A stretch of 33,886 nt of DNA from Candidatus Sulfotelmatobacter sp. (GTDB lineage Bacteria; Eisenbacteria; RBG-16-71-46), in the NCBI GenBank assembly GCA_035498555.1, contig DATKAB010000130.1, positions 1 to 33,886 of the forward strand. Direction: 5' to 3'. Below the pieces are notes generated by a model, which searched no databases, had not been told where the DNA came from, and was given only the letters and a program-made list of their open reading frames with translations. Shown piece by piece: positions 1 to 22,115 of the stretch. Numbering within the stretch: the stretch's first letter is position 1; the number at the start of each line of letters is the position of its first letter. A program made the translations under genes and the position numbers.

Positions 1-1614
1 GCGAGCGTCGGCAACAAAGCCGAGGTCTCGGGCAACGATTTGCTCGAGTTCTGGGAGCGGGATCCCGGCACCCGCATCATCCTGCTCTACCTCGAGTCGT
101 TCGGGCACCCGGGTCGCTTCCTCGAGATCGCGCGGCGCGTCGGTCGCGCCAAGCCGATCGTCGCCGTGAAGAGCGGACGGACCCGGGCCGGCATTCGCGC
201 CGCTTCCTCGCATACCGGATCTCTGGCTGGCGCCGATACCGCGGTCAGCGCGCTGTGCGCGCAGGCGGGCGTGGTGCGAACCGACACCATGGAAGAGCTG
301 TTCGACGTCGCCATGCTGCTCGCCAACCAGCCGGTGCCGCACGGAATTCGGGTCGGCATCGTGACCAACGCCGGCGGGCCCGGGATCATGGCCTCCGACG
401 CCTGCGAGTCGCACGGGCTCGAAGTGGTCACGCTCGAGGACTCGACCGTGGCCGCGCTTCGCGCCTTCCTGCCGGTCGAGGCCAGCACCCGGAATCCGGT
501 CGACATGATCGCTTCGGCCACGCCGCAGTCGTTCGAGAAGGCGGTGCGGCTGGTCGCGAACGACCCCAATGTCGATGCGTTGCTGGTGTTGTACGTGCCG
601 CCGATCGTGACACGCCCGCTGGACGTGGCCCAGGCGATCGTGCGCGGCAACGAGGCCGCCAAGGCCGACGCCCGGGCGCGCGGCGCCGCGCCCAAGCCGG
701 TGCTGTCGTGCTTCATGGGCTCGCACGGCGTTCCCGAGGGGCTCCGCTCGCTGCAGGAGGGCCACATTCCGTCCTACGCGTTCCCCGAGTCCGCTGCCAT
801 CGCGCTGGCGCGCGCCGTGCGCTACGGGAAATGGCGGGACACTCCGGAGGGCGTGGTTCGTCGGTTCGACGACTTCGACCATGCCGCGCTGGGCCGCCTG
901 ATCCGCGGCCCCCTCCCATCGGCCGGCGGGGGCGCGGTGCGCTGGCTCGATCCCGACTCGGTCCGCACCCTGCTCGCCGCCTGCCGGATCGCGACGCCGG
1001 AGCAGGCCTCGGCCGCGACCGCCGGCGAGGCGGCCGCCGCCGCCGAGCGCATCGGTTTCCCGGTCGCCCTGAAGCTCGCCTCGCCCACCATCACCCACAA
1101 GTCGGACGTCGGCGGCGTGGTGCTCGACGTGCGCGATGTCGCCGAAGCGCGCGCCGCCTTCGAGGCGATCGCGGGACGGCTGCGTGCCGCGGGCCGGCTC
1201 GCCGACATGGCGGGGGTCACCATTCAGCCCATGATCCGCGAGGGCCTCGAATGCATCGTCGGCATGACGCGCGATCCGTCGTTCGGACCCCTGCTGATGT
1301 TCGGACTCGGCGGCGTCCAGGTCGAACTGCTCAAGGACGTGATGTTCCGCGTGCATCCGCTCACCGATCGGGACGCGACCGAAATGGTGAGCGGCATCAA
1401 GGGAGCGCCGCTGTTCGCGGGCTACCGCGGCGGTCCCCCGGCCGACCGGCCGGCGATCGAAGAGATCCTCCTGCGACTTTCCCAGCTGGCCGGAGAATTC
1501 CCGGAGCTCGTGGAACTCGACCTCAACCCCGTTCTGGTGCGGGAGCGTGGCAGGGGCTGCATCGCCCTCGACGCCCGCATTGGTGTTCGATCGGCCGCGG
1601 AGGCAACACGATGA
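1..1614 (+). CDS. ADP-forming acyl-CoA (acetyl-CoA) synthetase, 5'-truncated
   Basis: The reading frame is open from base 1, so the N-terminal CoA-binding (Rossmann) domain lies outside the window and 537 residues are visible. The family converts acyl-CoA + ADP + Pi to acid + CoA + ATP through a phosphohistidine, giving substrate-level ATP in the cytoplasm. The visible part starts in the succinyl-CoA-ligase-like domain (SVGNKAEVSGND). It contains SSHTGSLAG, whose His (codon 211-213) sits where the family's phosphorylated His is expected. An ATP-grasp domain follows (FPVALKLASPTITHKSDVGGV; FGLGGVQVELLKDV; ELDLNPV), so alpha and beta parts are fused in one chain. The stop overlaps the next gene's start (ATGA, 1611-1614), placing it in one operon with the downstream two-component genes. 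An internal TTG at 40 is not a credible start. Confidence 0.93.
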   Translation, partial: ASVGNKAEVSGNDLLEFWERDPGTRIILLYLESFGHPGRFLEIARRVGRAKPIVAVKSGRTRAGIRAASSHTGSLAGADTAVSALCAQAGVVRTDTMEELFDVAMLLANQPVPHGIRVGIVTNAGGPGIMASDACESHGLEVVTLEDSTVAALRAFLPVEASTRNPVDMIASATPQSFEKAVRLVANDPNVDALLVLYVPPIVTRPLDVAQAIVRGNEAAKADARARGAAPKPVLSCFMGSHGVPEGLRSLQEGHIPSYAFPESAAIALARAVRYGKWRDTPEGVVRRFDDFDHAALGRLIRGPLPSAGGGAVRWLDPDSVRTLLAACRIATPEQASAATAGEAAAAAERIGFPVALKLASPTITHKSDVGGVVLDVRDVAEARAAFEAIAGRLRAAGRLADMAGVTIQPMIREGLECIVGMTRDPSFGPLLMFGLGGVQVELLKDVMFRVHPLTDRDATEMVSGIKGAPLFAGYRGGPPADRPAIEEILLRLSQLAGEFPELVELDLNPVLVRERGRGCIALDARIGVRSAAEATR

Positions 1615-3140
1615 GCGGGTCCGCGAGTCATCGAGAGCTGCTCGAGCTGGCCTTCGACCTGTCGCCCGCCGGCATGGTGGTGGTGGACGGCAAGGGCGCG
1701 ATTCTGCTGGTCAATCGCGAGATCGAGCGACTGTTCGGATACGACCGGCTCGAGCTGCTCGGCCGGCCGATCGAGACCCTGATCCCCTCGCGCTTCCGGC
1801 CGCCCCACGCCGGCTATCGCGAACACTACGCCCAGGATCCGGCGAGGCGACCGATGGGCGCGGGGCGGGACCTGCACGGACTGCGCAAGGATGGCACCGA
1901 AGTGCCGGTCGAGATCGGCCTCAACCCGATCCAGACCGAGCAGGGCCTGCTGGTGCTCGGCACGGTGGTGGACATCAGCGCGCGCCGTGCCTTCGAGAAT
2001 CGGCTCCGCCAGTCGCAGAAGATGGAGGCCATCGGAACCCTTGCCGGCGGGATCGCGCACGACTTCAACAATCTGCTGCACGGGATCCTCGGCCACGCCG
2101 AGCTGATCCAGCGCCGCACATCCGGGGACGACGAGCGCCGCGCCGACGTCCAGCAGATCCTCAAGATCGCCGACCGCGGCCGACTGCTGGTGGATCGGAT
2201 CCTCGCGTTCAGCCGCGCGCGCGAAGCGACGCGAGCCCCGGTGCGGCTCGGCCCGCCGGTTCATGAAGCGCTCGAGCTGCTGCGCGCCTCGCTGCCGCGC
2301 GAGATCGAAATCCGCGAGTCGCTGTCGACCGCCACCCCGATGGTGAGCTGCGACGAAACCCAGATTCATCAGATCACGATGAACCTGTGCACCAATTCGG
2401 CGCAGGCCATGGAACGCGGCGGAACGCTGGAAGTGACGCTCGCGCCCTTCGAGGCGAGCGCCGAGTTCGCGACCGCGCATCCGCCACTCGAGGCGGGGCC
2501 TCACGCCCGCCTGAGCGTGCGCGACACCGGCGTCGGGATGGCTCGGGAGGTGATCGAGCGAGCGCTCGAACCCTTCTTCACCACCAAGCCGGCCGGGAAG
2601 GGCACGGGTCTCGGCCTGTCGGTGATCCACGGCATCGTTCAGAGTCTGGGCGGCGCCCTGGAGATCACGAGTCGCGTCGGCGACGGGACCCGCGTCGACA
2701 TCTACCTGCGCGCCGAGGAACAGGCGCGCGCGGCCGCGACTTCCGCCGGCCTCGAGCCAGGCGAGCACCGGCCGCACGTGCTGGTGGTCGAGGACGAGCC
2801 CGACCTCGCCAGCATGCTCCGGCGCCAGCTCGAGGCCTTCGAGTACCGGGCGACCGTCCACACCTCGAGCGTCGAAGCGCTCGACGACTTCCGTTCGCGG
2901 CCCGACGCATTCGACCTGCTGATGACCGACAACAGCATGCCGCGCATGTCGGGGATCCAGCTGGCCGGAGAGATTCGCCGGATCCGACCCGAGCTTCCGA
3001 TCCTGCTGGTCTCGGGGACGGCGGCGCTCGCCGATCCCGCCCAGCTCCAGGCGCTGGGCATCGTTCATGTCCTCGGCAAGCCGCATACCGGCCGGCAGAT
3101 GAGCAATGCGCTGCAGAAGGCGCTGGGGCGCGAGCCATGA
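1611..3140 (+). CDS. PAS-domain hybrid histidine kinase with C-terminal receiver
   Basis: 509 residues with no transmembrane segment, so probably a cytoplasmic sensor kinase. Order: PAS (about 8-125, LAFDLSPAGMVVVDGKGAILLVN); HisKA with the H-box GGIAHDFNNLL, phospho-acceptor His150; HATPase with the N-box NLCTNSAQAM, G1 DTGVGM and FFTTKPAGKGTGLGLSV; then a receiver (about 390-509) with acidic pair VEDEPD and phospho-acceptor Asp440 in MTDNSMP. The layout resembles sigma-54-associated NtrB/AtoS-like kinases with an added receiver, so a phosphorelay or autoregulation is likely. The start is fixed by the 4-bp ATGA overlap with the synthetase stop. The stop overlaps the next kinase the same way, suggesting translational coupling. 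The signal sensed is unknown. Confidence 0.93.
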   Translation: MSGSASHRELLELAFDLSPAGMVVVDGKGAILLVNREIERLFGYDRLELLGRPIETLIPSRFRPPHAGYREHYAQDPARRPMGAGRDLHGLRKDGTEVPVEIGLNPIQTEQGLLVLGTVVDISARRAFENRLRQSQKMEAIGTLAGGIAHDFNNLLHGILGHAELIQRRTSGDDERRADVQQILKIADRGRLLVDRILAFSRAREATRAPVRLGPPVHEALELLRASLPREIEIRESLSTATPMVSCDETQIHQITMNLCTNSAQAMERGGTLEVTLAPFEASAEFATAHPPLEAGPHARLSVRDTGVGMAREVIERALEPFFTTKPAGKGTGLGLSVIHGIVQSLGGALEITSRVGDGTRVDIYLRAEEQARAAATSAGLEPGEHRPHVLVVEDEPDLASMLRRQLEAFEYRATVHTSSVEALDDFRSRPDAFDLLMTDNSMPRMSGIQLAGEIRRIRPELPILLVSGTAALADPAQLQALGIVHVLGKPHTGRQMSNALQKALGREP

Positions 3141-4281
3141 TCGATTCGAGCGCGCGGCGGCCGGATCCCGCCCGAACGCTTCCCCTCCCGCCGTCGCTCG
3201 ATTTGCCGGCGGTGATGGATTCGCTGAGCGACGCGATCGTGGTGGTGGATCGCGCCCGCCGCGTGGTGGCCGCGAATCGCCGCTACCTCGAAGTGTTCGG
3301 CGCCGGGCGGGAACACGTCGTCGGCCTGCTGTGCGACGACGCGGTGGCGTGCCCGGAGGCCGCCGCGGGCCAGCTCGGCCGGTGTCCGGCGTGCCGGGCC
3401 CGCGATCTTCGCACGCCGCAGCGTGAAATCCGCGTGCTGCCCGACGCCGGCGGGGGCACGCGCCGCTGGGAGATCACGTTCAATCCCATTCTCGACGCGA
3501 ACGAAGTGACCACCCACGTGGTCGAGGTCTGGCGCGACATCAGCGAGCGGACCGCGCTCGAGGCGCAGCTCTCTCACAGCGAGCGACTGGCGTCGATCGG
3601 CATGCTGGCCGCAGGGGTCGGCCACGAGATCAACAATCCGCTGGCTTCGCTGATGGCGAGTGTCGAGAGCCTCGAGCGGCTGCTCAAGCGCGGGATGTCG
3701 ACGGATGCCGATCGGGCCGAGGCGCTGGAAATCGTCCAGCTCGCCGAACGCGAGGTGACGCGCTGCCGCGAGACCACCGACAAGCTGGTGCTTCTCGCCC
3801 AGCCCTATTCGGTGGCGCCGATCTGGGTGGACTTCAATCGCGCCGTACTCGACACCGCCTCTTTGTTGCGGCACCAGATGAACAAGCAGGGCATCGAATG
3901 GCGTGCCGAGCTCGAAGTCGGGCTCCCCCGCGTGTGGGCGCGGGAGTCCGGCATTCGCGGCGTGTGTCTCAATCTCATGATGAACGCGGTGCAGGCGATG
4001 CCCACGGGAGGAGTGCTCCGCGTTTCCACGCGCCTCGACGGGCGTACTGCCGAGATGCGCGTCGAGGACACCGGGCCGGGCATCCCGCCCGAGCACCTTC
4101 AACGCATCTGGGATCCGTTCTTCACCACCAAACCCGCGGGCCAGGGGACCGGCCTCGGTCTGTTCGTCACGCAATCCATCGTGCACCGCAACGGCGGTAC
4201 GATCCGGGTGGAGAACGTGCCTGGCCGAGGAGCCCGGTTCACACTTCGACTGCCGCTCGACTCGACGGAGGGAAACACCAC

Positions 4282-4285
<4 letters not shown>
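3137..4285 (+). CDS. PAS histidine kinase with cysteine-rich sensor domain (NtrB-like)
   Basis: 382 residues, soluble. A PAS domain (about 22-140) is followed by HisKA (LAAGVGHEINNPL, phospho-acceptor His163) and HATPase_c (NLMMNAVQAM; DTGPGIPP; FFTTKPAGQGTGLGLFV). Inside the PAS core are four cysteines, Cys66-x5-Cys72-x10-Cys83-x2-Cys86, a spacing that could bind Zn or Fe-S or form redox disulfides. That suggests an oxygen or redox input, but the ligand is inference. It overlaps the preceding kinase by 4 bp (ATGA at 3137-3140) and the NtrC-family gene by 4 bp (4282-4285). It is therefore the most likely direct partner of that activator. Confidence 0.92.
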
Positions 4286-5721
<1,436 letters not shown>

Positions 5722-5765
5722 GCTCGCAGCGCCGCTCTCGGCCGCCGCGCTCTGCCAAAGCTTCA

Positions 5766-5805
5766 GGCGTGGCGTGACGGGCTGTCAGAGTTTCGGCGCC
5801 ACGCC
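5766..5805 (+). promoter_or_regulatory. Candidate enhancer (UAS) inside a 9-bp inverted repeat
   Basis: Perfect 9-bp arms GGCGTGGCG (5766-5774) and CGCCACGCC (5797-5805) flank TGACGGGCTGTCAG (5775-5788), itself a TGAC-n5-GTCA dyad. The inner motif recurs upstream of uspA and hsp20 in the same orientation relative to transcription. It lies 94-107 bp upstream of the -24 GG of the promoter at 5881-5896, a normal distance for an NtrC-type enhancer. It is 54 bp beyond the stop of the NtrC-family gene. A terminator is less likely because the loop is 22 nt and no T-run follows. Confidence 0.6.
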
Positions 5806-5880: not shown

Positions 5881-5896
5881 GGGCACGCGGCTTGCG
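5881..5896 (+). promoter_or_regulatory. Sigma-54 (-24/-12) promoter of the receiver-like gene
   Basis: GGGCACGcggcTTGCG matches the sigma-54 consensus TGGCACGnnnnTTGCW, with GG at 5882-5883 and GC at 5894-5895 separated by exactly 10 bp. Transcription is predicted to start near 5907, giving a leader of about 90 nt before the ATG at 6000. That leader can fold into two hairpins, with arms 5912-5917/5923-5928 and 5932-5939/5964-5971. A TGACnnnnTGnCAG enhancer candidate lies about 100 bp upstream. Confidence 0.72.
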
Positions 5897-5999
5897 GAGC
5901 AGGATCGTCATGGCGAGAGCGGCTCGCCGTCCGCTCGGGCCCGGAAACGGACCCGTGGACGGCCCCGAGCGCTCTCCATTCCAGCCCCGAGAGCGGCCG

Positions 6000-6380
6000 A
6001 TGCCCATGATCATGATCTGCGACCCGCGCCCCCGGCACGACGAAGTGGGTCGTGTCGCGGATACGCTACTCGACCGCGGCTACGGCGTCCGCTCCTTCAG
6101 CGACGGCGAGCGTTTCCTGGAGGCCGCGGTGGCGCAGCCGCCGGATCTGGTGGTGTACGCGCTCGGAGAAGAGCTGGAGTCGGACCTGGGCGTGCTCAAG
6201 CTGCTGCGACGCGCCCTTCCAGACATGCATCTGATCGTGCTTTCGGCGCAGCCGTCGTTGCGAACCCGGACCGCCGTCCAACCACTGCGACCGATCTTCT
6301 ACGCGGTGGATCCGCCCGATCCCGACGAGGTCATCGAGGTCGTGCAGACGGCGCTCGAGCGTCGCGAGCGGCCGAGCTGA
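6000..6380 (+). CDS. Receiver-like protein lacking the phospho-acceptor Asp
   Basis: 126 residues that follow a CheY-like fold pattern: MIMICDPRPRHDEV at beta1, QPPDLVVYALGEEL at beta3, DMHLIVLSAQPSL at beta4 and IFYAVDPPDPDEVIEVVQTAL at beta5-alpha5. The usual Asp at the end of beta3 is Ala, one of the beta1 acidic pair is Cys, and the beta5 Lys is missing. It is therefore a pseudo-receiver with no attached output domain, and phosphorylation is not expected. It could act by protein-protein contact, perhaps titrating or adapting the upstream kinases (inference). The ATG at 6000 gives a full domain; in-frame starts at 6006 and 6012 are possible, and the frame is open upstream to 5826. It converges with the SRPBCC gene with only 5 nt between stops. 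Confidence 0.72.
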   Translation: MPMIMICDPRPRHDEVGRVADTLLDRGYGVRSFSDGERFLEAAVAQPPDLVVYALGEELESDLGVLKLLRRALPDMHLIVLSAQPSLRTRTAVQPLRPIFYAVDPPDPDEVIEVVQTALERRERPS

Positions 6381-8451: not shown

Positions 8452-9141
8452 CTAATTGACTCGGGTGGGAAGCGACGCGCTGCCGTCACCCTTGGGTACC
8501 AGAAGCAGCTTGTAGCGAACCACGATTCGATCGGCGACCTTGAGGGCGCCGAGCATCATCGCGGGCGGATGGATACCGAACTCGCTCATGAGCAGCGGCT
8601 CGCTGCCCTCGAGCCAGACGCCTTCGGATGCGCGGAAGGCGCGGGCCTCGAGCGTGTCCGGTCGCTGGACCCCGGCCACTTCGAGCGTGCCTTCCGCGCG
8701 GATCTGCATCGTGTCGCCGGGAACTCCCGCCGGCGAGACGACATAGTGCGTGAGGTGAAACTTGACCGACGGATACTGCTCGGCCTTCAAATCCTTCCAG
8801 AGGTTCTTGTCGAGCCCCGACTTCTCGGACTTGAGGCTGGTGACCGGAACGTCCAGATCCACCGAGCGGATGGAGCCGCCGCGGATCAGGCTCTCGAGCC
8901 CGGCGACGTCGGCGGGCGAAGTCGAGGCCGGATCGCGGGTCAGGCTGAGCGTGGAACTCGAAGTGCGGCTCTCGAAATCATGGAGCGTCGACTTGCCTTC
9001 GAGCCACAGCGAGCTGCCCGCTCCCATCGTGATCGGAACTGGCGTGGCGGTGTCGGCGGCCAGCGAGCGAATCACCGTTGCGGCCGCCAGCAACGCGGCC
9101 ATCATCAGCATGGCGAGCGCGAACCTGCGTCCGGCGCTCAC
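8452..9141 (-). CDS. YceI-like periplasmic lipocalin-fold protein
   Basis: 229 residues, with an N-terminal hydrophobic segment (ALAMLMMAALLAAATVIRSLAA) for export or anchoring. The body has YceI-family features: SLWLEGKSTLHDFESRT, VDLDVPVTSLKSEKSGLDKNLWKDLKAEQYPSVKFHL, and a final hydrophobic strand. YceI-fold proteins bind long isoprenoids or lipids in the periplasm. The chosen GTG start at 9141 overlaps the uspA stop (GTGA, 9138-9141), which explains the start and implies translational coupling. A downstream ATG at the hydrophobic segment would be too short for a signal peptide. Confidence 0.85.
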   Translation of the reverse strand: MSAGRRFALAMLMMAALLAAATVIRSLAADTATPVPITMGAGSSLWLEGKSTLHDFESRTSSSTLSLTRDPASTSPADVAGLESLIRGGSIRSVDLDVPVTSLKSEKSGLDKNLWKDLKAEQYPSVKFHLTHYVVSPAGVPGDTMQIRAEGTLEVAGVQRPDTLEARAFRASEGVWLEGSEPLLMSEFGIHPPAMMLGALKVADRIVVRYKLLLVPKGDGSASLPTRVN

Positions 9142-9605
9142 GACGGCACCTTCGGGTTCTTGGCGCCGTTGGCCAGCTTCACCACCAGCACGCTGCACGG
9201 CGCATGAGTCACCACGTGGCTCGCCACGCTCCCCAGCAGCAACTTGGTGAAGCCGGTGCGCCCGTGCGAACCGAGCACCACCAGGTCCACACCATGTTCG
9301 CGCACCGCGTCCACGATGGCTTCACGCGGATCGCCTTGCGCGACCAGGGCCCGGCTCTTGAAGCCGTGGTCCCGGAGCTGCCGCTCGAAACGAGCGCTGA
9401 TCTCCTGGTGATGCTTCACTTCCTCTTCGTAGATTTCGGCCGGGAAGCCCATCGCCGGTGCCTCGGCGACGGCGTAGGACGCGACGATCGGGCGCGCCGC
9501 CGACAGCACGAGGAATTCGGTGCGGGCCGGCCACGTCATGCTCTTGGCCCAGTCCATCGCGGCCTGCGAGTAGGCCGAGTCGTCCACTGCGATCAGGATC
9601 TTCAT
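9138..9605 (-). CDS. Universal stress protein, UspA family (ATP-binding type)
   Basis: 155 residues, a single Usp domain: MKILIAVDDSAYSQAAMDWA at beta1, DLVVLGSHGRTGFTKLLLGSVASHVVTHAPCSVLVV at the nucleotide loop. The latter fits the G-x2-G-x9-G-S pattern of ATP-binding Usps. Family members support survival under starvation or hypoxia. The ATG at 9605 has a strong AGGAGG (9611-9616). It is the first gene of a four-gene operon (uspA-yceI-porin-SRPBCC) and is served by the sigma-54 promoter at 9646-9661. It lies directly downstream of the MgtA-like ATPase on the same strand but has its own promoter. Confidence 0.94.
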   Translation of the reverse strand: MKILIAVDDSAYSQAAMDWAKSMTWPARTEFLVLSAARPIVASYAVAEAPAMGFPAEIYEEEVKHHQEISARFERQLRDHGFKSRALVAQGDPREAIVDAVREHGVDLVVLGSHGRTGFTKLLLGSVASHVVTHAPCSVLVVKLANGAKNPKVPS

Positions 9606-9645: not shown

Positions 9646-9661
9646 GGCAACGCTCGTGCCA
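9646..9661 (-). promoter_or_regulatory. Sigma-54 (-24/-12) promoter of the uspA operon
   Basis: On the minus strand TGGCACGagcgTTGCC matches the sigma-54 consensus at every defined position of TGGCACGnnnnTTGC. The -12 GC is at 9648-9647, so transcription should start near 9635, 30 nt before the uspA ATG. Two enhancer candidates lie at 9772-9806, about 112-146 bp upstream of the -24 GG. Confidence 0.85.
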
Positions 9662-9771: not shown

Positions 9772-9806
9772 CCGCCACTCTGTCAGGCGCCGCTGCCAGC
9801 GTGTCA
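9772..9806 (-). promoter_or_regulatory. Tandem candidate enhancer sites (UAS) for the uspA promoter
   Basis: Read on the minus strand: TGACACGCTGGCAG (9806-9793) and TGACAGAGTGGCGG (9785-9772). Both fit TGACnnnnTGnC(A/G)G and are 21 bp apart start to start, about two helical turns, as expected for cooperative activator dimers. The outer copy contains the stop codon of the MgtA-like ATPase (9804-9806), so coding and regulatory sequence overlap. Confidence 0.6.
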
Positions 9807-12386
9807 CGCCGCCGATTCGGCGCGATGCGATGGCGCGGGGATGGCGGGGCGCGTCCGATAGAAGGGGATCTTGGCGAGCTCTGCCGAAACCACGTAGGCG
9901 AGTGCGATCGCGACCAGCATCCCGACCAGCGGCAACGGAAGGGGCACGAAACCCATCAGGCCGGCGAACGGCAGGTAGGGGAGCGCGAACGCCAGCGGGA
10001 TCAACGCCACCGTCGCCCAGAACAGGAACGGCCCGGGGAGGCTGCGGAAGAAGGGGCGCCGCGTCCTCACCACCAGCGCCACCAGCAGCTCGGTGAGCAG
10101 CGATTCGACGAACCAGCCGGTGCGGAAGGTGGCGGGCGGGGCGTGGAAGATGCCCAGCAGTGCGCCGAACGTGACGAAGTCGAAGACCGAGCTGAGCACT
10201 CCGAACACCAGCATGAACCGCCCGATGAACAGGATGTTCCAGCGTTCCGGCTTCTCGACCATCTCGGGATCCACACGATCCTCGGCCAGCCCCAGCGCCG
10301 GCACGTCGGCGAGGAAATTGTTGAGCAGGATCTGGCTCGCCAGCAGCGGCAGGAAGGGGAGGAACAACGAAGCCAGCGCCATGCTCAGCATGTTGCCGAG
10401 ATTGGCGCTGGTGGTGGTGAGGATGTACTTCATGCTGTTGGCGAAGGTGCGCCGGCCCTCCTCGATGCCCCGCCGGATCACGTCGAGATCGCGCTCGAGC
10501 AGCACGAAGTCGGCGGCCTCGCGGGCCACGTCGACCGCCTGATCCACCGACAGGCTGGTGTCGGCGGCATGCATCGCCGGCGCGTCGTTGACCCCGTCGC
10601 CGAGGAACCCGACCACGTGGCCCGAATGGCGGAGCGCGCGGATCACCCGCTCCTTCTGGGTCGGATCCACCTCGACGAACAATCGGGCCCGCTCCACTTC
10701 CCGGGGAAGCGCTTCGTCGCTGATGTCATCGAGCTCCGCTCCGCTGAGGAGTCCCCCCTCCGTGAGACCGACCTGATCCGCGACCTGCCGGGCCACCAGG
10801 CGGTTGTCGCCGGTGATGATCTTGACCGACACGCCGAGCCGGGCGAGATCGGCGAGCGCGCCGGCCACGCCGGGCTTGGGCCGGTCGCTGAAGGTCACGA
10901 ATCCTTCGAAGGTGAGATCGCGCTCGTCGTCGCGCGAGTAGCTCGCGCGCTCCGGGAGATCGCGGCTGGCGATGCCCAGCACGCGGATCCCGCGCGCGCC
11001 CCATTCGTCGAAGCGCCGCTCCAGTTCGGCGCGCCGCGCGCCGTCGAGAGCCGTGCCGCCGGGGAGCGAAGAGCAGATCGCGAGCAGCGGCTCGAACGCG
11101 CCCTTGGTCACGAGTCGCACGCCTTGCGCCTCGCGAACCACCACGCTGACCCTGCGACGCACGAAGTCGAACGGGATCTCGGCGAGCTTCTGGACCGCCG
11201 GAGCCGGCTTGCAGGCCGCGACGATTGCGTCGTCGAGCGGGCTGCCGATCCCGGTCTCGAGCGCGGCGTTGCAGCCGGCGAGGTCCAGCACCGACGTCAG
11301 GGTCTCCCCGTCGGGTCCGTAACTGCCCTCCAGTCGCACCACGCCCTCGGTCAGCGTGCCGGTCTTGTCGGTGCAGAGCACGTCCATGCTCCCCAGGTTC
11401 TCGATCGCCTGGAGTCTTCGCACCAGGACGCCGGCCGTGGCCATCTGTGACGCGCCCCGCGCCAGATTGATGCTCAGGATCGCCGGCAGCAGCTCGGGCG
11501 AAAGGCCCACCGCCAGCGCCACCGAGAACAGCAGCGTCTCGATCGGCGGCCGGCCGCGCAGCACGTGGATCACGAACACCGCGAGGGTCATGACCACCAT
11601 CACGCTGGTGAGGAGATACCCAAAGCGCAGGATGCCGCGATCGAACTCGGTCTCGGTCGGGCGCGTACGCAGCCGCCGCGCGATCGCGCCGTACTGGGTG
11701 CCGAGCCCCGTCGACACGACCAGGAATCGCGCCGTTCCGCTCCGGACGTTGGTGCCGAGGAACACGCAATTGCTGCGGGCCCCGAGCGGTGCGCCGGCCT
11801 CGACGACGCCCGGCTGTTTCTGGATCGGGAAGCTCTCGCCGGTGAGCGCGGCCTCGTTGACGTGGAAATCGGTGGCCTCGATCAGCACGCCGTCAGCCGG
11901 GACCAGACTGCCCGCCGACAGCAGCACCACGTCGCCGGGGACCACCTCGGCCACGGGAATCCGCACCGCGCCGCCGTCCCGGAGCGCGGTGACGAGAGTC
12001 TGCACGCGCGCCTCGAGCGCCGCCGCGGCGCGGTAAGCGCCGATCTCGCGCGCCGCGCCCAGGCTCACGGTGAGCGCCACGATCACCAGCACGATGATCG
12101 ATTCGATCCAGGAACCGGTCAGCGCCGAAGCCGCCGAGGCGAACAGCAGCACCAGCAGCAGAGGGTTGGAGAACTGGCGCAGCAGCACCCCCAGCGGCGT
12201 GCGCCGGTCCCGGCGGCGCGTTTCGTTGCGCCCGTAGCGCCTGAGCCGATCGGCCGCTTCAGTCGACGACAGGCCGTTCGTGTCCGAGCCCATTTTCAGG
12301 AGGAGGTCGGCGGCCGGGGCAGACCAGTAGGGGGCCGATCCGTCCGTTCGGCGATCAGCGCGGTCGTTCGCGTTCGAGCGCGACAT
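9804..12386 (-). CDS. P-type cation-transporting ATPase, MgtA-like
   Basis: 860 residues, close to MgtA/MgtB length. Cation-ATPase N-terminal domain (about 25-95), actuator motif ALTGESFPIQK, M4 region VALAVGLSPELLPAILSINLARGA as in magnesium-type P-ATPases, phosphorylation motif CTDKTGTLTEG with Asp340, hinge GFLGDGVNDAPAM, and C-terminal membrane helices. By family it would import Mg2+ or a similar cation using ATP; substrate specificity is not proven. The ATG at 12386 lacks a Shine-Dalgarno but has TACCTT 6 nt before it, so the mRNA may be leaderless. It is divergent from the DUF6920-like gene 48 bp away. Related ATPases often sit with UspA and Hsp20 genes in energy-stress clusters. Confidence 0.9.
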   Translation of the reverse strand: MSRSNANDRADRRTDGSAPYWSAPAADLLLKMGSDTNGLSSTEAADRLRRYGRNETRRRDRRTPLGVLLRQFSNPLLLVLLFASAASALTGSWIESIIVLVIVALTVSLGAAREIGAYRAAAALEARVQTLVTALRDGGAVRIPVAEVVPGDVVLLSAGSLVPADGVLIEATDFHVNEAALTGESFPIQKQPGVVEAGAPLGARSNCVFLGTNVRSGTARFLVVSTGLGTQYGAIARRLRTRPTETEFDRGILRFGYLLTSVMVVMTLAVFVIHVLRGRPPIETLLFSVALAVGLSPELLPAILSINLARGASQMATAGVLVRRLQAIENLGSMDVLCTDKTGTLTEGVVRLEGSYGPDGETLTSVLDLAGCNAALETGIGSPLDDAIVAACKPAPAVQKLAEIPFDFVRRRVSVVVREAQGVRLVTKGAFEPLLAICSSLPGGTALDGARRAELERRFDEWGARGIRVLGIASRDLPERASYSRDDERDLTFEGFVTFSDRPKPGVAGALADLARLGVSVKIITGDNRLVARQVADQVGLTEGGLLSGAELDDISDEALPREVERARLFVEVDPTQKERVIRALRHSGHVVGFLGDGVNDAPAMHAADTSLSVDQAVDVAREAADFVLLERDLDVIRRGIEEGRRTFANSMKYILTTTSANLGNMLSMALASLFLPFLPLLASQILLNNFLADVPALGLAEDRVDPEMVEKPERWNILFIGRFMLVFGVLSSVFDFVTFGALLGIFHAPPATFRTGWFVESLLTELLVALVVRTRRPFFRSLPGPFLFWATVALIPLAFALPYLPFAGLMGFVPLPLPLVGMLVAIALAYVVSAELAKIPFYRTRPAIPAPSHRAESAA

Positions 12387-14571: not shown

Positions 14572-14591
14572 GTGACAAATCCGGCCTTCCC

Positions 14592-14605
14592 TGACGGAAT
14601 GACAG
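14592..14605 (+). promoter_or_regulatory. Candidate enhancer (UAS) for hsp20
   Basis: TGACGGAATGACAG fits TGACnnnnTGnCAG. It shares 11 of 14 bases with the site at 5775-5788 and has the same orientation relative to the gene it would serve. It lies about 119-132 bp upstream of the -24 GG of the promoter at 14723-14738. A further TGAC occurs at 14573, 19 bp upstream, but its downstream half is not conserved. Confidence 0.58.
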
Positions 14606-14722: not shown

Positions 14723-14738
14723 TGGCACGCGCTCTGCA
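14723..14738 (+). promoter_or_regulatory. Sigma-54 (-24/-12) promoter of hsp20
   Basis: TGGCACGcgctCTGCA matches TGGCACGnnnnTTGCA at all but one defined base. GG at 14724-14725 and GC at 14736-14737 are 10 bp apart. The predicted start near 14749 leaves a leader of about 94 nt before the hsp20 ATG. Confidence 0.8.
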
Positions 14739-14842
14739 GAGTGTTCTGCTGCCGTTTCGTAGCACGAAGCGGGCGGTGCGCCGGGCGACGACGCAGGCGC
14801 GGCGGATCGAATCAGGATCAGTGCGCAAAGCGGGAGGAATGT

Positions 14843-15277
14843 ATGAAGGCGACTCTGGTGCCCACCACGGGAGCTCGGTGGCTCCGCAATGAGATGGATC
14901 GGCTGTTCGATCGGGTGTGGGACGGGGATGAATTCTCGACCATGGGGGAGTGGGCGCCGCGTATGGATGTGTCCGAGACCCCGGATGCGCTGACGGCGCG
15001 CATCGAGATCCCGGGAATCGAGCCCAAGGACGTTCAGGTGCTGATCGAGCACGACGTCCTCACCGTCAAAGGCGAGAAGCACGAGGAAGCCGAGCAGAAG
15101 AGCGAGAAGTACTTGAGGCTCGAGCGCGGCTACGGGGCCTTCACGAGGAGCGTGCGGCTGCCGGCTCCGGTCGAGGCGAACAAGGTGGTGGCGACGTTCA
15201 AGAACGGACTGCTCGTGATCACGATGCCCAAGGCCGCCGAGGCCAAGGGGGTCACGGTCCCGATCAAGCTGACCTGA
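14843..15277 (+). CDS. Small heat shock protein, Hsp20 / alpha-crystallin family
   Basis: 144 residues. The N-terminal arm (MKATLVPTTGARWLRNEMDRLFDRVW) precedes an alpha-crystallin domain (about 38-135): RMDVSETPDALTARIEIPGI, VLTVKGEKHEE and FKNGLLVITMPKA, the last being the A-x-x-x-n-G-v-L family signature. The tail VTVPIKLT carries an I-x-L/V-like motif. It is an ATP-independent holdase chaperone in the cytoplasm. The ATG has GGGAGG at 14832-14837. A sigma-54 promoter rather than a heat-shock promoter lies upstream, linking it to the two-component system at 1.6-5.7 kb. Confidence 0.94.
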   Translation: MKATLVPTTGARWLRNEMDRLFDRVWDGDEFSTMGEWAPRMDVSETPDALTARIEIPGIEPKDVQVLIEHDVLTVKGEKHEEAEQKSEKYLRLERGYGAFTRSVRLPAPVEANKVVATFKNGLLVITMPKAAEAKGVTVPIKLT

Positions 15278-21529: not shown

Positions 21530-21862
21530 TCAGGGCGTGCCCATCTCCGGGCTGCCTTCCATCATCGCCTCGACCGCTTTCTTCACACGGCGGCGGCGAA
21601 CGGCGCGGCGAACCACGGCGCGACGCACCCGCTTCTTCACGCGGCGGACCGTCCGACGCACTTTCCGCTTCGCGCGACGAACGCGGCGAGCGCCGCGGCG
21701 TACCACGCGACGGCCGCGGCGAGCCTTGCGTCTGCCGCGGCGAACGGTCTTGCGGACTGCGCGACGGACTTTGCGGCGCGCACCGCGCTTGGCGCGCCGA
21801 ACCCGGCGGACCGTCCGCCGAGCGCCTCTCTTCGCCTTCTTTCTCGTTCTCCTGCCGGCCAT
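21530..21862 (-). CDS. Arg-rich histone H1-like nucleoid protein
   Basis: 110 residues, of which 44 are Arg and 13 Lys (52% basic). Nearly the whole chain consists of degenerate RRxVRR / AKRGARR / RRGRR units with Ala, Val and Gly spacers. It ends in a short neutral-to-acidic tail (VEAMMEGSPEMGTP). Composition and repeats match histone H1-like or HC2-like DNA-binding proteins, which compact DNA or bind RNA. It is unusual for using Arg rather than Lys/Ala/Pro repeats. The ATG at 21862 has GGAGGG 4-5 nt upstream; the frame is open further upstream (to 21937) but that part has no basic repeat. Codon use follows a GC-rich pattern, so the opposite strand is also open; I treat that as a shadow. Confidence 0.78.
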   Translation of the reverse strand: MAGRRTRKKAKRGARRTVRRVRRAKRGARRKVRRAVRKTVRRGRRKARRGRRVVRRGARRVRRAKRKVRRTVRRVKKRVRRAVVRRAVRRRRVKKAVEAMMEGSPEMGTP

Positions 21863-22115
21863 CGTTCCCTCCGGTGTAGGAAAACTACGTGGGCAACGCC
21901 GAACGGTCGAGTTCGCGTTGCGCGGGTGACGAGTCACCCATCCGTGCGCTCTGATTGCCAGCGCTGAGGCGACAGCTTACATGTGGCGGGAATTGTTGCA
22001 AGCAAGAATGACATGATTGCGCGAGAATTGTCGTCACCGATCGCGCACGACACGCGCTAAGCTCCGGTCGATCGGCTGAAATGTTTCCATCGACAATCAC
22101 CGAGAGGAGCCGCAC

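Follow-up and report, generated by a model that had tools for sequence, protein, structure and literature searches.

In the literature consulted, receiver-like proteins that inhibit histidine kinases are documented only in alphaproteobacteria, where FixT (PMC7078487) and Osp (PMC9430884) have been described. FixT of Sinorhizobium meliloti and Caulobacter crescentus is presented as a single-domain receiver that is not phosphorylated and that, once induced by FixLJ, blocks autophosphorylation of FixL, the kinase of the very pathway that induces it (PMC7078487). Osp of Rhodobacter sphaeroides is reported to be activated by CtrA, to bind the transmitter domain of CckA and to block its kinase activity, and the authors propose that inhibition of this kind could be frequent (PMC9430884).

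Here we describe a stand-alone pseudo-receiver encoded behind an NtrC-like activator gene in the window, by which we mean the whole stretch of 33,886 nucleotides analysed. In its predicted anatomy the protein fits the functional type of FixT and Osp, being apparently non-phosphorylatable, stand-alone and a putative member of its neighbour's regulon. The FixT trait of being transcribed by the pathway that it restrains may have a counterpart here, as a sigma-54 site and a shared upstream dyad would suggest. A further likeness to the present system lies in the ties of FixT with a PAS sensor kinase and with O2/redox biology; FixT differs, however, in belonging to an alphaproteobacterial FixLJ system that is not sigma-54-dependent (PMC7078487). 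Osp is likewise a receiver-like protein exerting negative feedback on the kinase of the system that induces it, but by its published description it keeps Asp51 while lacking both beta1 acids and the Lys, it operates in a hybrid kinase-phosphorelay, and its gene does not lie beside the regulator of its system (PMC9430884). The original prediction had regarded the arrangement as unfamiliar, and it is less so once set beside the published accounts of FixT (PMC7078487) and Osp (PMC9430884), both receiver-like inhibitors induced by the system that they restrain.

The principle of receiver-like feedback is known, while the present version of it, the regulon and a live sister module described below appear to be undescribed. 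Judged by titles and abstract openings, among them that of PMC12316311 on sigma-54 regulons across phyla, and by excerpts of a review (PMC12471899), the arrangement is not described in papers on pseudo-receivers and sigma-54, on receiver-like inhibitors, on single-domain or stand-alone receivers with NtrC, on sigma-54 in Eisenbacteria, on Hsp20/Usp sigma-54 regulons or on four-Cys PAS domains.

The resemblance to FixT does not extend to the sequence. A FixT candidate in S. meliloti, picked by its position beside FixL- and FixJ-like ORFs in an unannotated record, matched the profile of the pseudo-receiver family with an E value of 2.4 among the ORFs of 30 kb and of 0.02 when searched alone, against 3e-7 for the FixJ-like ORF; it is no closer to the family than receivers in general, and no homology of the pseudo-receiver to FixT can be detected by sequence. 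Inspected by eye, this candidate seems to have retained the Asp of beta3 and the Lys of beta5 and to be without the beta1 acids, a pattern of loss opposite to the one seen here.

Table 1. Features of the pseudo-receiver locus and of its candidate regulon, in window positions.
Feature	Position	Strand	Remarks
Hybrid histidine kinase HK1	1611..3140	+	PAS, HisKA, HATPase, canonical receiver
Sensor histidine kinase HK2	3137..4285	+	PAS, HisKA, HATPase; conserved with activator
4-Cys motif in HK2 PAS	3332..3394	+	C66-x5-C72-x10-C83-x2-C86; residue numbers counted by hand
NtrC-like sigma-54 activator	4282..5721	+	Canonical receiver, AAA+, Fis HTH
Candidate upstream activator site 1	5752..5766	+	CTGCCAAAGCTTCAG; 7/8 dyad positions
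Candidate upstream activator site 2	5774..5788	+	GTGACGGGCTGTCAG; 7/8 dyad positions; 22 bp from site 1
Sigma-54-type promoter, putative, of pseudo-receiver gene	5881..5896	+	GGGCACGCGGCTTGCG; GG/GC elements 5882-5883 and 5894-5895
Pseudo-receiver gene	6000..6380	+	126 aa; Asp8, Pro9, Ala54, Ser82, Asp104 at classical active-site positions
Sigma-54-type promoter, putative, of Usp gene 9138-9605	9646..9661	-	TGGCACGAGCGTTGCC; dyads 9772-9786, 9793-9807
Sigma-54-type promoter, putative, of Hsp20 gene 14834-15277	14723..14738	+	TGGCACGCGCTCTGCA; dyad CTGACGGAATGACAG at 14591-14605

The pseudo-receiver ORF comprises 126 codons (6000-6377) followed by a stop codon at 6378-6380, and this length is confirmed by the homologues of other genomes, which have their start at the corresponding codon. 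A longer version of 156 residues would start at an in-frame ATG at 5910, but this codon lies almost on the predicted transcription start. The Pfam Response_reg model gave only an E value of 0.0061, below Pfam's cut-off, while the receiver part of the NCBIfam NtrC model matched at 1.9e-7, and a profile of 15 homologues, searched against PDB chains, matched receivers with a best E value of 4e-9. Structure prediction for the monomer returned a confident (beta-alpha)5 fold (pLDDT 93.4, pTM 0.87) whose structural matches are CheY-like receivers; superposition on the KdpE receiver gave Z 19.0 and rmsd 1.6 over 118 residues. By its predicted fold the protein is thus a member of the CheY-like receiver superfamily, and the stand-alone CheY-like chain of the original prediction is borne out by the ORF, the starts of the homologues, the profile matches and the structural model alike.

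The active site is eroded as had been claimed: Ala54 takes the place of the phospho-acceptor Asp, Asp104 that of the beta5 Lys and Pro9 that of the second beta1 acid, leaving Asp8 as the one acid of the pair, while the Thr/Ser site is kept as Ser82. Neither the beta3 Asp with the beta5 Lys nor the acidic pair after beta1, the two marks of a canonical receiver, is therefore present. This condition is shared by the family, in which the phospho-acceptor Asp occurs in 0/15 members (Glu in 3/15) and the beta5 Lys in 0/15. In a control set of 33 further receivers encoded by these genomes, the Asp is present in 32 and the Lys in all 29 that have a residue at that site, and the activator's own receiver is canonical in 12/12 aligned orthologues. 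As the 15 family members form one clade (FastTree support 1.0, UFBoot 83), an old, single loss is more probable than several independent ones.

A search with the family profile located the pseudo-receiver in 14 of 47 genomes of the phylum, the class and phylum searches having covered the same 47 genomes. These are GC-rich, MAG-like assemblies of a phylum with a single class, and together with their gene content this may point to Eisenbacteria or a comparable candidate phylum. Family members scored at least 128 bits, the outlier in G032 94 and all other listed receivers at most 60, a gap measured with a profile trained on the family itself. An activator orthologue (E<=1e-150) was present in 13/47 genomes and both genes in 12, a co-occurrence with a Fisher p of 2e-8, uncorrected for genome relatedness. 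The coupling to the neighbouring operon, on which the original prediction hinged, is conserved: in 12 loci, that of the window among them, the gene is the immediate downstream neighbour of the activator and has its orientation. It is nonetheless dispensable, since genome G038 has the activator and no pseudo-receiver gene. Genomes G023 and G024 carry the gene without a full-length activator match, and in G024 an activator fragment at a contig end adjoins it. A scan of genome contigs gave a single match, an ordinary NtrC receiver from a Nitrospirota MAG. The family has diverged fast, with a mean pairwise identity of 0.34 against 0.64 for the activator's receiver over largely overlapping genome sets, which could reflect relaxed constraint. 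Three family copies (L048, 6999-7340; L050, 8013-8426; L118, near 3040-3389) stand away from a full activator gene and are without sigma-54 site or dyad.

The original prediction also placed a sigma-54 promoter directly behind the activator gene. The site at 5881-5896 fits 10 of the 12 specified positions of TGGCACGNNNNTTGCW and on its own is moderate evidence, because 0.7% of shuffles of that intergenic region score as well. A GG-N10-GC site that agrees with the consensus at 9 to 11 of its 12 positions is, however, kept in 12/12 activator-pseudo-receiver intergenic regions, with a combined p of 4.6e-12 that overstates independence because some of the genomes are close relatives (L044, L046 and L020 being of one genus). 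No site reaching at least 9/12 was found within 700 bp downstream of the two activators that have no pseudo-receiver neighbour, and an rpoN gene is present in the genome. Such a promoter is absent at the second copies in G024 and G028 and at the only copy in G032. In G023, by comparison, the gene lies away from the activator, yet it has a sigma-54 site and dyads that it shares with a divergent Hsp20 gene; as the promoter is kept there without a close activator nearby, it appears to travel with the pseudo-receiver gene and not only with the place.

In 9/12 loci a palindrome, CTGNC-N5-GNCAG, lies some 80 to 130 bp ahead of the promoter and is matched at 7 or 8 of its 8 positions, and in L041, L042 and L043 the region between activator and pseudo-receiver holds no dyad at threshold. 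The dyad was found by eye and then scanned, and its combined p of 1e-6 over the 12 loci applies to a motif chosen from the same regions on which it was scored. Seven loci have an Hsp20 match, and in 5 of these (window, L037, L040, L041 and L049) the pair of dyad and promoter recurs upstream of the Hsp20 gene. In single loci it precedes the genes for Usp (window), YceI (L038), a porin (L036), an ADP-forming CoA ligase (L050) and the kinase HK2 (L036), the names YceI, porin and ligase resting on similarity to window genes. The Hsp20, Usp and pseudo-receiver promoters define, as far as can be read from the DNA, a sigma-54 stress regulon, and because the palindrome is common to Hsp20, Usp, YceI, porin and other promoters, the pseudo-receiver looks like a member of the activator's regulon. 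Its gene has a putative -24/-12 site together with candidate upstream activator sites common to Hsp20 and Usp, and the induction by the adjacent activator that was first proposed gains support from this conserved site and shared palindrome.

In a scan across the 47 genomes, the pattern matched 28 times in activator genomes against 4 reversed-pattern controls and 30 times against 13 in the others, a difference that is not significant (p 0.096) and is suggestive only. In the window's own genome the dyad alone (CTGACN5GNCAG) occurs near chance, with 16 sites on each strand where the reversed-pattern control gives 10 and 14, and only the combination of dyad and promoter stands out (4 against 0). 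The exact strong sigma-54 motif TGGCACGN4TTGC occurs twice in this genome, at Usp and upstream of a gene on contig C140 called ArsR-like by eye, the latter site without a dyad, and GGCACN5TTGCA occurs once, also without one. Two further combinations of dyad and sigma-54 site were noted in the same genome, in L127 (contig C60) and L128 (contig C192), the one on C192 preceding the gene of a secreted-looking protein. Combinations at 4006 in L037 and at 6206 in L041 likewise lie upstream of a gene, which we take to be AarF/UbiB-like.

Receivers paired at a spacing of about 1.7 kb also turned up when these genomes were searched with the family profile. In a sample of eight regions chosen for receiver pairing or for an NtrC-like gene, one of them from the window's own genome (contig C203, L161) and the others L162-L168, all eight have a stand-alone receiver behind a different NtrC-like activator; a sigma-54 site matching 10 or 11 of 12 positions lies 55 to 68 bp ahead of the domain of this receiver. 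This sister module has the same order of NtrC-like activator, strong sigma-54 site and stand-alone receiver as the module in the window, and differs from it in the identity of the activator and in the state of the receiver. The sister receivers are very conserved in sequence and keep the D/E-D pair and the Thr/Ser, the Asp in 7/8 (Glu in one) and the Lys in 8/8, so they should be phosphorylatable; the layout thus occurs in phosphorylation-competent and -incompetent versions. In the trees, the nearest relatives of the dead family are the sister receivers and the receiver of HK1 (joint group FastTree 0.82, UFBoot 100), from which it appears that the dead form did not arise from the receiver of its own activator. 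As the live and the dead module occur side by side in these genomes, the change from feedback that accepts phosphate to feedback by binding alone is open to direct test, and a conserved pseudo-receiver in another phylum, with another sigma factor and a defined target site, would point to more than one origin of the design.

We consider it somewhat probable that the pseudo-receiver is a FixT- or Osp-like feedback protein in the regulon of HK2 and the NtrC-like activator, acting by binding rather than by phosphorylation. What this reading takes from the sequence is the predicted fold, the family-wide loss of residues, the place behind the activator, the putative sigma-54 site and the upstream dyad. 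The kinase would phosphorylate the activator, which would bind CTGNC-N5-GNCAG sites and drive the promoter along with those of Hsp20, Usp and other stress genes; as it accumulates, the pseudo-receiver would bind a partner in the same pathway and limit its output, much as FixT acts on FixL and Osp on CckA. That the feedback would be negative is inferred from precedent only. The transmitter domain of the kinase has about an even chance of being the partner; the receiver of the activator (or of the hybrid kinase), contacted through the alpha4-beta5-alpha5 face, is a possible but less likely one, and a partner outside the pathway is less likely still.

The distribution of conserved residues bears on the choice of partner. 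Receivers usually dock to their kinases through alpha1, and of all helices in the family this one varies most (mean pairwise identity 0.20, compared with 0.34 for the protein overall), so FixT-like docking to the kinase is not favoured. Conservation is instead concentrated at the end of alpha3 and in beta4, alpha4, beta5 and alpha5, the alpha4-beta5 loop being the best-kept stretch (0.58), with Arg70, Pro98 and Pro105 invariant and an RP-x-Y/F-Y/F stretch conserved. As conservation lies on the alpha3-alpha4-beta5-alpha5 side and the weakest helix is alpha1, receiver-receiver contact with the activator is a serious alternative, in which the pseudo-receiver would pair with the receiver domain of the activator in a mixed dimer joined at the alpha4-beta5-alpha5 face and would poison activator assembly or sustain it, in the latter case giving positive feedback. 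Some of the conserved positions are, however, ordinary receiver core that is common in the controls, Arg70 occurring in 26 of 34 rows that include one family member (L110, the second copy of L020, which was left out of the 33-receiver control set), and titles and abstract openings provided no example of such a dimer; overall we regard it as rather improbable.

Receivers of the FrzS and RssB types bind proteins outside their own pathway, and as a regulon member the pseudo-receiver might similarly serve as an output or protease adaptor. Its apparent membership of the stress regulon to which Hsp20 and Usp belong would suit this role, as would the locus in G023, where the gene is divergent to Hsp20 and not beside the activator. 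The profile or fold matches also include receivers of RssB and FrzS, but these matches reflect the common fold, and in 12 loci the gene is attached to the activator and not to effector genes, so we think an adaptor role unlikely. It is very improbable that the gene is merely a decaying receiver duplicate without a function of its own, as its fast divergence, lost active site and absence from G038 might suggest, given that an open frame, the fold residues and the promoter are kept in 12 synteny-conserved loci, that the family is monophyletic and that Cys or His has become newly common at position 7.

Of the two kinases, HK2 stands beside the activator in most loci; HK1 does so in few and is usually absent at related loci. 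The PAS domain of HK2 contains a four-Cys motif in which three positions are Cys in 9/9 and one in 8/9 of the orthologues that keep the PAS domain, making it a candidate Fe-S or zinc sensor. Other four-Cys PAS sensors exist, the Fe-S protein NreB among them. As the final residue of beta1, 10/15 members of the pseudo-receiver family have Cys (Cys7 in the window) and 3/15 have His, against Cys or His in 0/33 controls, and position 33 at the end of beta2 is Cys in 11/15 (Phe in the window) against 3/33. A redox link between these residues and the four-Cys PAS domain of HK2 is a lead only. Taken further, an activator with its own sigma-54-driven receiver could be a recurrent feedback module of this phylum in live and dead forms, in which the dead form gave up phosphate chemistry in exchange for a Cys/His pair at the ends of beta1 and beta2, so that the brake itself would sense redox state or metal, matching the four-Cys PAS domain of the kinase, as a separately evolved counterpart of the Fe-S feedback of Caulobacter FixT; we consider this whole scheme distinctly unlikely.

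Elsewhere in the window, a short and very Arg/Lys-rich ORF on the minus strand (21530-21937) resembles a histone-H1-like or AlgP-type tail.
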